From positions 1 to 7,589 of the forward strand of contig JBFLYA010000179.1 in assembly GCA_040757115.1 (NCBI GenBank): a DNA stretch of 7,589 bases, written 5' to 3'. The notes under the pieces are model-generated. The model saw only the letters and a program-made list of their open reading frames with translations. It was not told the DNA's origin and did no database searches. The DNA comes from a bacterium (GTDB lineage: Bacteria > UBA9089 > CG2-30-40-21 > SBAY01). Within the stretch, counting starts at the first letter, position 1; the number at the start of each line of letters is the position of its first letter. A program made the translations under genes and the position numbers. This document shows positions 1,886 to 7,290 of this stretch, piece by piece.

Positions 1886-2043
1886 GTAAGCGTTCAGCCA
1901 TCAGGTATCAGCAATCAGTTAACATCCAGGAAATCAGGATAGTAACAAATCCTACAATTTTGCGTAAATGGTGTCTATGTGTCTGGTAGTCTATGTAACC
2001 CAGACACTTAGACACCCAGATACCAGACTACCTGAACGGTTAC
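1886..2043. repeat. Element 1: 158-base intergenic element with 12-base inverted ends
   Basis: The ends read GTAAGCGTTCAG on the plus strand (1886-1897) and GTAACCGTTCAG on the minus strand (2043 to 2032), an 11/12 inverted match. Inside the left end, tandem 7-base units continue the motif: CGTTCAG, CCATCAG, GTATCAG, CAATCAG (1891-1918). The right part holds a strong hairpin (1971-2015). The right end overlaps the last four bases of murG, including its stop codon. The left end stops 28 bases before the ATPase start, so the element fills almost the whole murG-ATPase gap. No credible coding sequence is seen within it. The structure is MITE-like or REP-like; mobility is inferred, not shown. Confidence 0.65.
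1971..2015 (-). other. Long hairpin 25 bases downstream of murG
   Basis: GTGTCTATGTGTCTGG (1971-1986) and CCAGACACTTAGACAC (2000-2015) pair over 16 positions with one mismatch, around a 13-base loop. A competing 8-base inverted repeat, GGTAGTCT (1985-1992) with AGACTACC (2025-2032), overlaps it. On the operon transcript the hairpin lies just after the murG stop. No T-run follows on the minus strand, so it is not a standard intrinsic terminator. It could protect the upstream mRNA end or simply be part of the repeat element. Confidence 0.6.
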
Positions 2044-3092
2044 GAATAAATAATATTAACCACATTTTGGGTTGCATCTGCCGTTTTAAGCGGCTGATAA
2101 TTTTCAGCCATTATTTTGAGTTTATGACGATTTTCGATTAACTCAATAATAATCTTGCCTAAATTTTCAGATGATAGTTCTCTATCTTTTATCATTATTG
2201 CCGTTCCCTTTTCCACCAGAGGTCTGGCGTTATATTCCTGATGATTATCTGTGGCATAGGGATATGGGATTAAAATTGCTGGCAAATTACAAGCAATAAT
2301 TTCCGCGATGGTTGTTGCTCCGGCTCGACAGATAACCAAATCTGCCACTTGATACGCTACGGGTAAATCATAAAAAAACTTTTCAACGACTATTTTTACT
2401 TTTGATTTTGTTTCCTTTATGACTTGATAATCTTCCTCCCCGGTTGCCCAAATTATTTGTATTTTATCATCTGGGAGAAGATTTAGTGTTTGTTTCATCA
2501 CCTCATTAATTTTATGTGCCCCTTTGCTTCCGCCAAAGACAAGCAAGGTAAATTTATCTCCACTTATCTCAAATCTCTTTAGTGCCTCCTGTCTATTTAT
2601 CTGTCCAATCTGTAATCTAACGGGATTGCCTGTTAGCACGGTTTTTTTCGTGGGTAGAAATCGATTAGAATCGGCAAAACTAATGGCTATTTTATCGACA
2701 AATTTAGCCAGCAAGCGAGTGGCTTTACCAGGAATAAAATTTTGCTCATGAATAACGGTTTTAATCTTAAATAAGACTGCTCCTAAGACTACAGGAACTG
2801 AGGCATAACCTCCCATTCCCAGAACAATATCTGGTTTAAACTCTATAAGATACCTTATCCCGACAAAAAAGGTTTTTATTAGTTTAATGAAAAACTTAAT
2901 TTTATTTTTTCCAGTCCAGCCTTCGACATCAAGCCCTTTAAATTTAAACCCTTGTTTTTGAAGGATATCTGACTCAATCCCTTTTGTGGTACCTATAAAT
3001 AAAATCTCGGTCTTTTCTTTTAATCTCTCGGCAATTGCCAGAGCCGGGTAGATATGTCCTAATGTCCCACCGCCTGTAATTATAATCCGCAT
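2040..3092 (-). CDS. murG: UDP-GlcNAc:lipid I GlcNAc transferase MurG
   Basis: MurG is the GT28-family glycosyltransferase that moves GlcNAc from UDP-GlcNAc to lipid I, giving lipid II on the inner face of the membrane. At 350 residues it has the normal length. Visible motifs are the N-terminal glycine loop GGGTLGHIYPALA (7-19), GMGGYASVP (92-100), HEQNFIPG (115-122), TGNPVR (154-159), the second glycine loop FGGSKGAHKIN (186-196), CRAGATTIAE (255-264) and the nucleotide-sugar site PYPYATDNHQ (276-285). The first loop reads GGTLGH where the family usually has GGTGGH; the histidine (H13) is kept. The ATG follows the ftsW stop by 21 bases with purine-rich AGAAGAGG upstream, so the two genes are probably cotranscribed. 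The last codon and the stop (TCG TAA) overlap the GTAACCGTTCAG boundary motif of element 1. Identification is firm. Confidence 0.97.
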   Translation of the reverse strand: MRIIITGGGTLGHIYPALAIAERLKEKTEILFIGTTKGIESDILQKQGFKFKGLDVEGWTGKNKIKFFIKLIKTFFVGIRYLIEFKPDIVLGMGGYASVPVVLGAVLFKIKTVIHEQNFIPGKATRLLAKFVDKIAISFADSNRFLPTKKTVLTGNPVRLQIGQINRQEALKRFEISGDKFTLLVFGGSKGAHKINEVMKQTLNLLPDDKIQIIWATGEEDYQVIKETKSKVKIVVEKFFYDLPVAYQVADLVICRAGATTIAEIIACNLPAILIPYPYATDNHQEYNARPLVEKGTAIMIKDRELSSENLGKIIIELIENRHKLKIMAENYQPLKTADATQNVVNIIYS

Positions 3093-3113
3093 TTTACCCT
3101 ATGCCTCTTCTAC

Positions 3114-4238
3114 CTACTGATGCAATCTACTGGTGAATGATTGTTGTAACGAGTACTTAGCGATATTTAAAATAATTCCCACTCCAATCATATTAATAAG
3201 TAAAGATGAACCGCCAAAACTAATAAAAGGTAATGGCATTCCTGTAGTTGGAACTACGCCTGTAACGACACCGATATTGAGAAGTGATTGCAGGATAATT
3301 AAAGCCGTTATCCCAAATGCCAATAATGAGCCATAAGCATCTGCGGCTAAAAGACTAATTTTTAATCCCGCAAAGGCAAATAGTACAAATAGAATAATAA
3401 CAAAGGCTGTCAGTAAAAATCCACCTTCTTCGCCGATGACCGCAAAGATGAAATCTGTCGATGATTGAGGCAAGTAAAATAATTTTAACTTACCTTCACC
3501 TAATCCCTGTCCATATAGTCCTCCAGAACCTAAGGCAATTAATGACTGAATAATGTGGTAACCTTTATGCTCGGGGTCTGCCCAGGGGTTTAAAAATACC
3601 ATTAATCTTCTGGCTCGATATGGAGCACATTGAATTAAAAAATAAACTGTTGGAATAGCCAATAATACCAGCGCTATTAAATATTGCATCCTACACCCGC
3701 CGACAAATAAAATAGACACTGTCGCCATACCTAAAAGAACAACCATTCCCAGATGAGGTTGTTTTAATAGAATTACGGAAACAAGTCCTAAAAGTAACAA
3801 AGGGGGCAGAAATCCTTTAAAAAGCCCCTGAAATTCTTTTCCTCGACGAACTATAAAATCAGTCAAATAAATGATAAAGATAATTCTCATTAATTCTGAT
3901 GGTTGAAAACTTATAAACCATATTTTTAGCCATCTTGTTGCCCCACTTATCTCATATCCTATGCCAGGGATGATAGTCAGGCTAATTAAACATACCCCAA
4001 AAAGAAATAATTGCCAACTTCTCTTTTGTAACTTATGATAATTAAATTTCCAGGCACAAAAAAGTCCAATTAGCCCCATTGTCACCCAGATAAGTTGTCT
4101 TTTAAAAAAATAATATGTGTCACCAGTATGTTGTTTAGCAAAGATAGCACTGGAACTATAAATCATCAACACACCAATCCCCACCAAGGTAATCGTGATT
4201 AAAAATAATGCAATATCCACTCGTGATTTTGACGCCAT
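3114..4238 (-). CDS. ftsW: SEDS peptidoglycan polymerase FtsW
   Basis: FtsW is a multi-spanning SEDS-family glycosyltransferase that polymerises lipid II at the septum with a class B penicillin-binding protein. The protein has 374 residues, many hydrophobic membrane segments and a short cytoplasmic N-terminus. Diagnostic stretches are YSSSAIFA (27-34), GATRWLKI (99-106), FQPSELMRI (111-119), the extracellular-loop region from RARRLMVFLNPWADP (208-222) to GQGLGEGKLKLFYLPQSSTD (243-262), DFIFAVIGEEGGF (262-274) and PLPFISFGGSS (335-345). D262 matches the position of the proposed catalytic aspartate. The usual QPDLGT reads QPHLGM (160-165); a histidine here is, to my knowledge, also found in some Firmicute SEDS proteins. 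FtsW is chosen over RodA because of its place between murD and murG. The start is supported by a strong AAGGAGG (4244-4250) five bases upstream. Confidence 0.95.
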   Translation of the reverse strand: MASKSRVDIALFLITITLVGIGVLMIYSSSAIFAKQHTGDTYYFFKRQLIWVTMGLIGLFCAWKFNYHKLQKRSWQLFLFGVCLISLTIIPGIGYEISGATRWLKIWFISFQPSELMRIIFIIYLTDFIVRRGKEFQGLFKGFLPPLLLLGLVSVILLKQPHLGMVVLLGMATVSILFVGGCRMQYLIALVLLAIPTVYFLIQCAPYRARRLMVFLNPWADPEHKGYHIIQSLIALGSGGLYGQGLGEGKLKLFYLPQSSTDFIFAVIGEEGGFLLTAFVIILFVLFAFAGLKISLLAADAYGSLLAFGITALIILQSLLNIGVVTGVVPTTGMPLPFISFGGSSLLINMIGVGIILNIAKYSLQQSFTSRLHQ

Positions 4239-4300
4239 ATAATCCTCCTTGAGTATGTTATAGCACTTATTAATCGAAATTTGACCCAGATATGGCTATG

Positions 4301-4435
4301 AAATTCCAAATCACAAATTCCAAATTCCAAACAAATTCGAATGACCAAAATTCAAAACATTACCTCCCATAGTTTGGTATTTAGTACTTGAAATTTGGTG
4401 CTTATTTGAAATTTGGTGCTTGGGATTTGGGATTT
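4301..4435. repeat. AT-rich long imperfect inverted repeat between murD and ftsW
   Basis: The left arm (4301-4338, starting AAATTCCAAATCACAAATTC) and the right arm read on the minus strand (4435 to 4398, starting AAATCCCAAATCCCAAGCAC) align without gaps at roughly 28 of 38 positions. The right side also holds a perfect 16-base direct repeat, TTGAAATTTGGTGCTT, at 4388-4403 and 4406-4421. No open frame of note is present in the stretch. With the adjoining murD tail element it occupies most of the 202-base murD-ftsW gap; the ftsW ribosome site lies outside it. It looks like a decayed repeat unit of a kind common in repeat-rich environmental genomes. Function is unknown. Confidence 0.55.
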
Positions 4436-4440
4436 TTTAC

Positions 4441-5862
4441 TTATCCACCCTGAGTATAATAACTGCTATAACAGCGTTCATTCAAAAACTGAATGCTGAA
4501 TGCTGAACGCTTACTTATTCTTGCTACTTCTTCCTTGAATACCCGGCCTCTTTCTTCATAGTTTTTAAACATATCATAACTTGAGCAGGCGGGTGAAAAA
4601 AGGATTGTATCCTTTGGTTTAGATAGTTTATATGCTAATTCAACTGCCTCGTGTAAATTCTGGACTTTAAAGATATTATCAAAATGGACACCTTGAGCGA
4701 TTTTATCCTTTGCTTCACCCAACAAAATCAATGTCTTTACTTTTGCTGATAACAAAGGATTTAGTCGGCTATAGTCACATCCTTTGCTTCGACCACCAGC
4801 AATTAAGATAATTGGTTTATTAAAACTTTGCAAGGCAACAAGGACTGAATCAACATTGGTTGCCTTTGAATCATTAATAAACCGTATGCCGTTAATACAA
4901 GCCACCTCTTCTATGCGGTGCTCGACCCCTTTAAATTCTCTTAATGTCTTTCTGACCACCTCGAAATCAATTTTAAGAATAGCACTTACTCCCAGAGCCG
5001 ATAGGACATTCTGGAGATTGTGAGGCCCGATTAAGGCTATATCTTGAGTTTTGCATATCTTATTTTCTTGTCCTTCAAATCGGCTAACAATCTGATTTCC
5101 TTTTAGAAAGATACCGTTTTCAAAGTCTTTTTTAGTCAGACTGAAAAAAATTGGTTTAGCCTTAGATTGTTGACTTACCTCCATAATATTTGAATCATCT
5201 GCATTTAGAACCATAAAATCATCTTTAGTCTGGTTCTCAAAGATTCTTGCTTTTATTTTCAAGTAATCATTCAGGTCTTTATGTCTATCAAGGTGGTCTG
5301 GGGTAAAATTTAAAAAAACACTGATATTGGGTCTAAAATCTTTTATGGTTTCTAATTGAAAACTGCTTATTTCTACAACCACAAGATAATCTTTGTCAAT
5401 TTTATCTATTGCCTCGGATAATGGATAACCGATATTGCCGGCGACGATAACTTTTTGGTCAGCGGTTTTTAAGATTTCGCCAATTAATGTTGTAGTCGTT
5501 GTTTTGCCATTTGTGCCGGTAACCGCAATCACTCGATTTTGTGGTAAAAATTGATAGGCTAATTCCATTTCTGAGATAATCGGAATACCCAATTTTTTCG
5601 CCTTTTGTAAAAATGGAATCTCTACCGGAATTCCAGGACTGACAACGATTAATTCACAGCGGGGTAAAGAGTCTTCCTTATGTCCGTCTGTTTCTATTTC
5701 TATGTCTAAATTTTTTAATTGAGTAATTTCGTTTTGCAATTGTGAGGCTGGTTTTGAGTCAGAGATTTTTACCTTTGCCCCATATTTAAGTAACAATTTA
5801 GCCGCTGACAAACCGCTTCTCGCCATGCCAACAATAATTATTCTTTTATCTTTAATATTCAT
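4441..5862 (-). CDS. murD: UDP-N-acetylmuramoylalanine--D-glutamate ligase MurD, with repeat-encoded C-terminal tail
   Basis: MurD is the cytoplasmic ATP-dependent ligase that adds D-glutamate to UDP-MurNAc-L-Ala. From the ATG at 5862 it has 473 residues. Motifs are GMARSGLS (12-19), the P-loop TGTNGKTTTT (116-125), SSFQLE (166-171), LNFTPDHLDRH (184-194), DYLKIKARIFEN with the probable carbamylated lysine (K204), EHRIEEV (314-320), NDSKATN (330-336), GGRSKG (356-361) and SPACSSYDMF (423-432). A GTG at 5889 in the same frame would add nine residues, but it lies inside the repeat boundary motif with no ribosome site, so ATG 5862 is preferred; its own site (AAGAAAAG) is weak. The family domain seems to end near residue 450. 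The last 23 residues (K451-G473) are encoded by GTAAGCGTTCAG, its CATTCAG repeats and flanking sequence, and are probably a late addition. Identification is firm; the start is moderately sure. Confidence 0.95.
   Translation of the reverse strand: MNIKDKRIIIVGMARSGLSAAKLLLKYGAKVKISDSKPASQLQNEITQLKNLDIEIETDGHKEDSLPRCELIVVSPGIPVEIPFLQKAKKLGIPIISEMELAYQFLPQNRVIAVTGTNGKTTTTTLIGEILKTADQKVIVAGNIGYPLSEAIDKIDKDYLVVVEISSFQLETIKDFRPNISVFLNFTPDHLDRHKDLNDYLKIKARIFENQTKDDFMVLNADDSNIMEVSQQSKAKPIFFSLTKKDFENGIFLKGNQIVSRFEGQENKICKTQDIALIGPHNLQNVLSALGVSAILKIDFEVVRKTLREFKGVEHRIEEVACINGIRFINDSKATNVDSVLVALQSFNKPIILIAGGRSKGCDYSRLNPLLSAKVKTLILLGEAKDKIAQGVHFDNIFKVQNLHEAVELAYKLSKPKDTILFSPACSSYDMFKNYEERGRVFKEEVARISKRSAFSIQFLNERCYSSYYTQGG
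4474..4514. repeat. Element 2: short inverted-repeat unit inside the murD 3' end
   Basis: On the minus strand it reads GTAAGCGTTCAG (4514 to 4503), continuing as 7-base units CGTTCAG, CATTCAG, CATTCAG. It closes with GCGTTCA on the plus strand (4474-4480), which pairs with TGAACGC (4504-4510). The result is a small hairpin-forming unit of 41 bases with a GTAA foot. The whole unit is translated within murD. The match to the edges of elements 1 and 3 is exact or nearly so over the 12-base motif, although the left boundary keeps only seven bases of it. Confidence 0.55.
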
Positions 5863-5919
5863 TTTCGTTCTTTTCTTGCAACCGTTCACCGCAGAGACAC
5901 AGAGACGCAGAGAAGAAAA

Positions 5920-6104
5920 TTAAAAACTATTTACCAGATGCTTCATTCCATTCCTGATTTTCATCAGGACAATCTCTGATTTTCATCAGAGCAAGCTTTT
6001 AAGGACCGAGATATCATGATTGATTAACAAATTTGGTTGTGATGTCCTATGTATTTTACCATGATTGCACCAATAATCTTTTCTGTTATCTGATTTATTT
6101 CCAT
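5920..6104 (-). pseudogene. Remnant of a GxxExxY-family protein gene with a deleted middle
   Basis: From the ATG at 6104 the minus strand encodes MEINQITEKIIGAIMV before the frame runs into unrelated sequence and stops at 6024. This matches the usual start of GxxExxY proteins (PDDEXK_3-like, roughly 125 residues), which typically read MEINxITExIIGAAIEVH. Near the other end, GMKHLVNSF followed by TAA (5949 to 5920) resembles a plausible C-terminus of the same family. The core, including the GxxExxY motif that names the family, is missing, and the two parts are not in one frame. The intact family has no firmly known function. The N-terminal match is good; the C-terminal match is weaker. The remnant is enclosed by the inverted ends of element 3 and is not expected to make a working protein. 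Confidence 0.55.
5952..5991. other. Two tandem perfect hairpins
   Basis: TCCTGAT-TTTC-ATCAGGA (5952-5969) and CTCTGAT-TTTC-ATCAGAG (5974-5991) are two 7-base-pair stems with identical TTTC loops. They share a CTGATTTTCATCAG core repeated at a 22-base offset. They lie in the middle of element 3, where the core of the decayed gene should be, in the transcribed mraY-murD spacer. Their role is unknown; no T-run follows on the minus strand, so termination is unlikely. Confidence 0.6.
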
Positions 6105-6160
6105 ATCTTCTCTGTGAACTCTTGCGTCTGGGCGGTGAATTACCAGCTGAACGGTTACCC

Positions 6161-7258
6161 TTACCTTAATTTCAAGGTACTTAAACTTAACAGGGTAAAT
6201 ATCCCGGCAATAATCCAGAATCTCACAATAATCTTTGGTTCACTCCAACCTTTTTTCTCGAAGTGATGATGTAGAGGCGCCATATTGAATATTCGGCGTT
6301 TAGTCAATTTCATCGAACCAACTTGAAGAATAACCGATAAAGCCTCAATCACAAATAATCCGCCGATGATTACTAATAATAATTCATTTTTAATCAAGAC
6401 AGCCGCTGTCCCAAGTATACCACCCAGAGCCAATGAGCCTGTATCCCCCATAAATACCTCTGCGGGATAGGCATTGTACCACAGGAAACCAATGGATGCT
6501 CCAATCAAGGCGGCAAGATAAATAGTTATCTCTCCTGCACCACTGACATAGATTATCTTTAGATAATGGGCGAATTTAAAGTGCCCGGCAAAATATGAGG
6601 CACCGACAAAACCAATTGCCGCAAATATTATCGCACCAATCGCCAGTCCATCCAGACCATCGGTTAGATTAACCGCATTGGAAGTGCCAACTATGACCAA
6701 AATGACAAATGGAATATAAAACCAACTTATATCTACCGGTGCTCCTTTAAAAAAAGGAATAGAAAGGGAAGTTCCATACTGCGAATGTATCGGATGATAG
6801 CACAGATAAATTGCCAACATAGATGCCAGGATAACCTGACCACTAAATTTATACTTAGCGACTAAACCTTCAGACCTTTGTTTGACTAATTTCAGGTAAT
6901 CATCTATAAATCCAATTAGACCTAAACCTACAGTCATTCCTATAATTATCCAGGTAAATCGAATATCAAACCGCAACCAGAGAATTGAAGATACAAGTAA
7001 CGCAATTAGAATGATTATCCCTCCCATAGTTGGGGTTTCAGCCTTATGAATATGATTTTGGAGGTATTCTTTGCGAATGACTTGATTAATATGTTTTTGC
7101 TTTAATTTTTTGATAATAAATGGAGCGATAATTAAAGATATGACTAACGCCGTGATAGCGGCATAAGCCGCCCGGAAGGTAATATATTTAAAAACCCTGA
7201 AGATGGAAAAACAAGTCTCTGGTTCGTATAACCATTCATAAAATATATGATAAAGCAT
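6161..7258 (-). CDS. mraY: Phospho-N-acetylmuramoyl-pentapeptide transferase MraY
   Basis: MraY is the polytopic inner-membrane enzyme that transfers phospho-MurNAc-pentapeptide from the UDP precursor to undecaprenyl phosphate, making lipid I. From the ATG at 7258 it has 365 residues, the usual length. Motifs are FRVFKYITFRAA (20-31), ETPTMGG (74-80), FIDDYLK with the paired catalytic-site aspartates D119 and D120, NLTDGLDG (197-204), MGDTGSLALGG (270-280) and the histidine-rich PLHHHFE (328-334). Many hydrophobic segments separate these loops. A TTG at 7285 in the same frame is less likely: the ATG has GAGGGG (7265-7270) six bases upstream, gives the typical MLYH start, and the TTG overlaps a possible -10 box. 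The stop is followed after two bases by the boundary motif of element 3. It is the first gene of the operon visible here; murE and murF, often upstream, are not in the window. Confidence 0.97.
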   Translation of the reverse strand: MLYHIFYEWLYEPETCFSIFRVFKYITFRAAYAAITALVISLIIAPFIIKKLKQKHINQVIRKEYLQNHIHKAETPTMGGIIILIALLVSSILWLRFDIRFTWIIIGMTVGLGLIGFIDDYLKLVKQRSEGLVAKYKFSGQVILASMLAIYLCYHPIHSQYGTSLSIPFFKGAPVDISWFYIPFVILVIVGTSNAVNLTDGLDGLAIGAIIFAAIGFVGASYFAGHFKFAHYLKIIYVSGAGEITIYLAALIGASIGFLWYNAYPAEVFMGDTGSLALGGILGTAAVLIKNELLLVIIGGLFVIEALSVILQVGSMKLTKRRIFNMAPLHHHFEKKGWSEPKIIVRFWIIAGIFTLLSLSTLKLR

Positions 7259-7284
7259 TTTTTTCCCCTCTTTTTTAGTTACCA

Positions 7285-7290
7285 ATTATA
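7285..7290 (-). promoter_or_regulatory. Possible -10 box upstream of mraY
   Basis: The minus strand carries a perfect TATAAT (7290 to 7285), placed so that transcription would begin roughly 20 bases before the mraY ATG at 7258. No convincing -35 hexamer is found 16-18 bases further upstream (AGTTTC at 17). Such a match is expected by chance in AT-rich sequence, so this is only a candidate. It would let the operon be transcribed from a point inside the repeat-separated upstream spacer. Confidence 0.25.

Follow-up and report, generated by a model that had tools for sequence, protein, structure and literature searches.

The window considered here, the whole stretch of 7,589 nucleotides that was analyzed, contains a cell-wall gene cluster in which copies of one 12-base motif lie in the gaps between genes of the same direction. 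This locus raises the question of what these copies are and what could have brought them there. The genes, all on the minus strand, are mraY (6161-7285), murD (open reading frame 4441-5889), ftsW (3114-4238), murG (2040-3092) and an ATPase_2-type gene (730-1857), together with one more gene that is truncated at the start of the window. The ATPase_2/AAA_35-type gene lies within the mur gene cluster, adjoining murG, and this region is also present in the congener G001 at 99% identity.

Genomes and Sampled Regions

The host genome assembly (G000) comprises 4.3 Mb in 462 contigs. Close analysis was carried out on samples of 975 kb from G000, 406 kb from its congener G001, 260 kb from the distant G008 and 74 kb from G005.

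Motif Copies in the Window and Their Abundance

Exact motif copies were confirmed at positions 1886-1897 (+), 2032-2043 (-), 4503-4514 (-) and 6147-6158 (-), and the fifth copy reported at 5878-5889 is present with two mismatches. At up to two mismatches the window contains six matches against 0.43 expected, a number reached in none of 200 shuffles; the additional two-mismatch match at 5263-5274, inside murD, looks like a chance occurrence.

The genome-wide search that the original prediction had proposed yielded 627 exact copies of the 12-mer GTAASCGTTCAG in the 4.3 Mb of G000 (304 forward and 323 reverse), compared with a single copy of the reversed control. Across 19 genomes of the phylum the exact counts were 627 and 619 (G000 and G001, same genus), 468 (G008, another family), 144, 100, 82, 75 and 46, followed by values of 0-19; counts in the 22 genomes from outside the phylum stayed at the control level (0-2). 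Elements with paired ends make up about 2.7% of the sampled sequence, and about 87% of the exact ends lie outside ORFs of at least 120 amino acids, though ORFs of this size occupy 72% of the sampled sequence.

Structure and Mobility of the Elements

Among neighboring ends less than 700 bp apart in the 975 kb of G000, the inverted orientation predicted for them (+-) was found 67 times, compared with 12 ++, 5 -- and 7 -+ arrangements. Perfect 8-bp direct repeats flank 30 of the 67 inverted pairs and are absent in the other 37, and pairing the flanks of different elements gave an expectation of 0.05; the duplications are exactly 8 bp long, with none of 9 bp or more. Perfect 8-bp duplications also flank 14 of 20 pairs in G001 and 10 of 22 in G008. 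The ends themselves (109 distinct ends) are sharply conserved at positions 1-12 and more weakly at position 13, after which conservation is gone. A sister end type, GTAACTATTCA(G/C), pairs with itself, also with 8-bp duplications, whereas the counts listed for mixed CGTT/TATT pairs include no 8-bp duplications, which is what nested or neighboring elements would be expected to give. The elements are about 115-570 bp long (115-567 bp in the sample) and carry no transposase gene.

Several insertions lie in dispersed repeats of which uninterrupted copies exist at other places; these empty sites contain the 8-bp target only once. Examples are the insertion at L039:10454 as compared with the intact L037 and L177 (97% over about 180 bp), the insertion at L032:19625 as compared with L040 and L044, and the insertion at G001 L164:3267 as compared with the intact L034, L182 and L198. 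Near-identical element copies occur at unrelated loci (one 237-bp family has 15 members in 975 kb), and elements are also nested within one another. The combination of paired inverted ends, 8-bp duplications and empty sites therefore identifies the elements as MITEs moved by a DDE-type transposase.

The Three Sites in the Window

At site 1 the claimed 158-base element bounded by an inverted motif pair proved to be a complete MITE (1886-2043) with a hairpin-forming interior, whose left end GTAAGCGTTCAG occupies 1886-1897 (+) and whose right end GTAACCGTTCAG occupies 2032-2043 (-). It is flanked on either side by the 8-bp target-site duplication GAATAAAT, with identical copies at 1878-1885 and 2044-2051. 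G001 has a single GAATAAAT here and carries a different element, 238 bp long with the duplication CTTACTTT, between flanks that are 98-99% identical. Other 158-bp copies of MITE 1, each with its own duplication, are found in G000 at L050:9229 and L135:3410, and the copies in G001 are 98-99% identical. The GTAA of the right end is the source of the murG TAA stop codon (TTATTC-GTAA across 2032-2051, read as Tyr-Ser-stop), and the C-terminus of murG, shortened by this MITE-supplied stop, differs from that in G001.

A separate widespread hairpin with GGTAA(C/T)TG heptamers and the tail AACCGATTACTTACTTTATAATTTCGTGAAGCCCTA was observed in G001 L164 near site 1, at L195:17345 and at L034:7161; it has no motif ends and is itself a MITE target.

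Site 2 did not bear out the claimed 41-base element closed by a reduced motif copy at 4474-4480. Instead, a single unpaired MITE end (GTAAGCGTTCAG, 4503-4514, -) is joined to a different dispersed repeat at 4258-4471. The end belongs to a remnant (4474-4514, -) that consists of one intact end and a short hairpin of CATTCAG heptamers, its other end being lost or damaged beside the preceding repeat. That repeat is a hairpin with AAATTCC-type arms of 7 bp and a terminal TATAGCASTTATTA inverted repeat, is not bounded by the motif, and, with the window counted, has 15 matches in the G000 and G001 samples. Both the MITE end and the 4258-4471 repeat are missing from this site in G001, and the murD reading frame extends into the region. 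The repeat represents a second dispersed family, which is sometimes nested in CAGAG-type MITEs (L041:15879).

The claimed 281-base element at site 3 proved to be full-length but diverged; it belongs to a common MITE family and is also present in G001. This MITE 3 (5878-6158) has the ends GCAACCGTTCAC and GTAACCGTTCAG, the latter at 6147-6158 (-), and CGCAGAG arms, and matches a 254-bp element flanked by a duplication (L124:9506) with 82% identity over 279 bases. No target duplication remains in the flanks of 5878-6158, and the element is an old copy. G000 and G001 carry this same old element, with an internal difference of 84 bp.

Cargo Diversity

The expectation that ends are shared while interiors are unrelated held far beyond the window, with one end type capping at least 20-30 unrelated hairpin cargoes. 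Interiors formed 20 clusters in the G000 sample and 31 in the four genomes, but because certain clusters are mosaic or only partly related, the figure of at least 20-30 types indicates an order of magnitude only. The interior contains no gene, is not common between element types, and in almost every case forms a long, imperfect hairpin whose arms are built of degenerate 7-8 bp repeats. In a rough comparison (mononucleotide shuffles, 20 each) most interiors folded better than shuffled sequence, the exceptions being a few long or nested ones. Self-identity of the arms is in excess at lags 7 and 8 (z of about 9-10 against dinucleotide shuffles). The same CGCAGAG cargo was found under CGTTCAC, TGTTCAC and TATTCAC ends, and none of the cargo clusters of G008 and G005 is common to G000; cargo differs between lineages.

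The inverted ends, exact 8-bp duplications, empty sites and unrelated interiors strongly support the claim of one mobilization system that acts on different cargo in trans, in the manner of MITEs. A new cargo type would originate once a new hairpin has become flanked by two ends, and amplification of the pair would follow. More tentatively, one transposase end may serve as a general cap, so that hairpins of 7-8 bp repeats repeatedly gain IS66-type end pairs and spread, the phylum keeping the end sequence while its lineages turn over the cargo. As part of this possibility, transposition or repair might itself make new cargo, for example by fold-back copying from a single end, a guess prompted by the symmetry of the elements.

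Putative IS66-Family Driver and Rival Explanations

Among the transposase genes that the original prediction had suggested looking for, no RAYT gene with the same ends was found, and an IS66-family element with these ends, its gene broken, is present in G000. This single-gene element of 1,563 bp (G000:C277:3061-4623; PF03050, E = 1.9e-39) has inverted GTAACCGTTCAG at both ends, and its transposase gene contains two in-frame stop codons. Within the same gene a perfect GTAAGCGTTCAG lies in frame (L118 3441-3452; VSVQ), oriented as a left end; it could be a chance occurrence or a source of shortened elements. An intact IS66 transposase of 468 amino acids lies between GTAACCGTTCAC ends in G004, from another family of the order, and matches both Pfam DDE_Tnp_IS66 (PF03050) and NCBIfam transpos_IS66 (NF033517) above cut-off. 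G005 contains a further intact IS66 transposase with GTAACTACTCAG ends, and IS66 fragments adjoin GTAACCGTTCAC-like ends in G002, G006, G007 and G008. The IS66 transposases G002:C119 (L167) and G004:C299 (L166) share 97% protein identity in genomes of different families, which suggests recent horizontal transfer of a likely driver.

The published IS66 terminal repeat begins with GTAAGCG, is 20-30 bp long and is accompanied by 8-bp duplications (PMC11946415), and IS66 ends have been given as GTAAGCGTCCGG... (PMC12888890). The ends studied here begin with GTAA(G)CG, in agreement with both reports (PMC11946415; PMC12888890), and are associated with 8-bp duplications. Terminal repeats of 20-30 bp were not seen; the conserved MITE end spans 12-15 bp and the local IS66 copies share ~13-15 bp between their own ends. 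As the ends and the duplication length agree with those of IS66 and the two occur together, we consider the motif, with a probability of roughly 85%, to be the terminal inverted repeat shared by a large population of non-autonomous MITEs that an IS66-family DDE transposase mobilizes in trans. Such an enzyme would recognize the 12-13 bp ends in trans, mobilize the element and place it in targets that are AT-rich and mainly intergenic, with 8 bp duplicated in the process. We infer IS66 TnpC to be the acting enzyme and to have moved all cargo types.

An intact IS66 driver was found in neither G000 nor G001 when searching with PF03050, the G004 transposase or the N-terminal portion of the disrupted copy from G000, and since the assemblies are fragmented multi-copy driver elements could be missing from them. 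The MITEs might instead depend on another DDE transposase whose ends are similar and which also makes 8-bp duplications, the IS66 copies being passengers or sharing end chemistry only. Consistent with this, the 468 ends of G008 are accompanied by only tiny IS66 fragments and the 619 ends of G001 by no full IS66 element, with at most fragments found there, and the three full IS66 copies examined have no obvious 8-bp target duplication. We nevertheless regard a different DDE transposase as unlikely, given that the identical 12-bp ends occur on an IS66 element in G000 itself and near-identical ones on an intact element in the order, that IS66 fragments lie beside the same kind of ends in several genomes, and that the GTAAGCG start with an 8-bp duplication is the published IS66 signature (PMC11946415).

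Two explanations that dispense with a DDE transposase are both very improbable. The original prediction had speculated on REP-like units moved by RAYT (a Y1 tyrosine transposase), which the GTAA foot with its hairpin does resemble, and G000 contains six Y1_Tnp matches. Four of these six, however, lack an exact motif end in their vicinity; for one of the four, a variant end with one mismatch lies at a distance of about 1.1 kb. Next to the remaining two are ordinary two-ended MITEs. RAYT/REP transposition is not known to yield two inverted ends with 8-bp duplications, and REP/RAYT was rejected because of the 8-bp duplications and paired ends of the elements, whose lengths are mostly 115-570 bp. 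At the Y1_Tnp (RAYT-like) matches L243 (G000:C4) and L245 (G000:C14), a motif-ended MITE was observed inserted in or beside the gene. Were the 12-mer a non-mobile regulatory or structural site that recurs in spacers, such as a terminator or protein-binding site, the excess of ends outside ORFs and the hairpin folding of the elements would fit, but the target duplications, empty sites, nesting and near-identical copies at unrelated loci would not, and an Rfam scan of the window gave no match. A secondary regulatory effect after MITE insertion is conceivable.

Comparison with Known Systems

MITEs and IS66 are each already known. A search of the open-access literature gave no report of IS66-ended MITEs, nor one of a single end sequence common to such a number of unrelated hairpins whose arms have a 7-8 bp period, and a review of bacterial MITEs makes no mention of IS66 (PMC10969869). 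The elements offer a worked example of the birth of MITE families, with constant ends and interiors replaced many times (some 20-30 cargo types). At a locus where two congeners are otherwise about 98% identical, they account for much of the turnover of spacers, and they are probably one reason why these assemblies are fragmented.

The elements resemble single-gene (tnpC only) IS66 in that the ends start with GTAA(G/C)CG, the duplication is 8 bp and the tnpC element of G000 has identical 12-bp ends; they differ in having no transposase gene and a conserved end of 12-15 bp as compared with the reported 20-30 bp. With REP/RAYT systems (GTAG-tagged palindromes) they share high-copy intergenic hairpins adjoining a short GTA tag, but REPs have no known 8-bp target duplication, whereas paired ends and exact duplications occur here. 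The heptamer intergenic repeats of cyanobacteria and Beggiatoaceae are likewise short spacer repeats with a 7-bp period but, unlike the present MITEs, are described as direct repeats that lack transposon ends (PMC4679880). The BrickBuilt MITE of Porphyromonas gingivalis likewise has an interior of short tandem repeats, but it is one 23-bp repeat family with 19 copies, in contrast to the many hairpin cargoes with 7-8 bp periodicity found here (PMC4596501). As in bacterial MITEs such as Correia, ERIC and Chunjie (PMC10969869), the elements are about 115-570 bp long and non-coding, with inverted ends, target duplication, high copy number and an intergenic bias. Whereas the usual MITE families have a common interior together with common ends, here many unrelated interiors are found under one end sequence.
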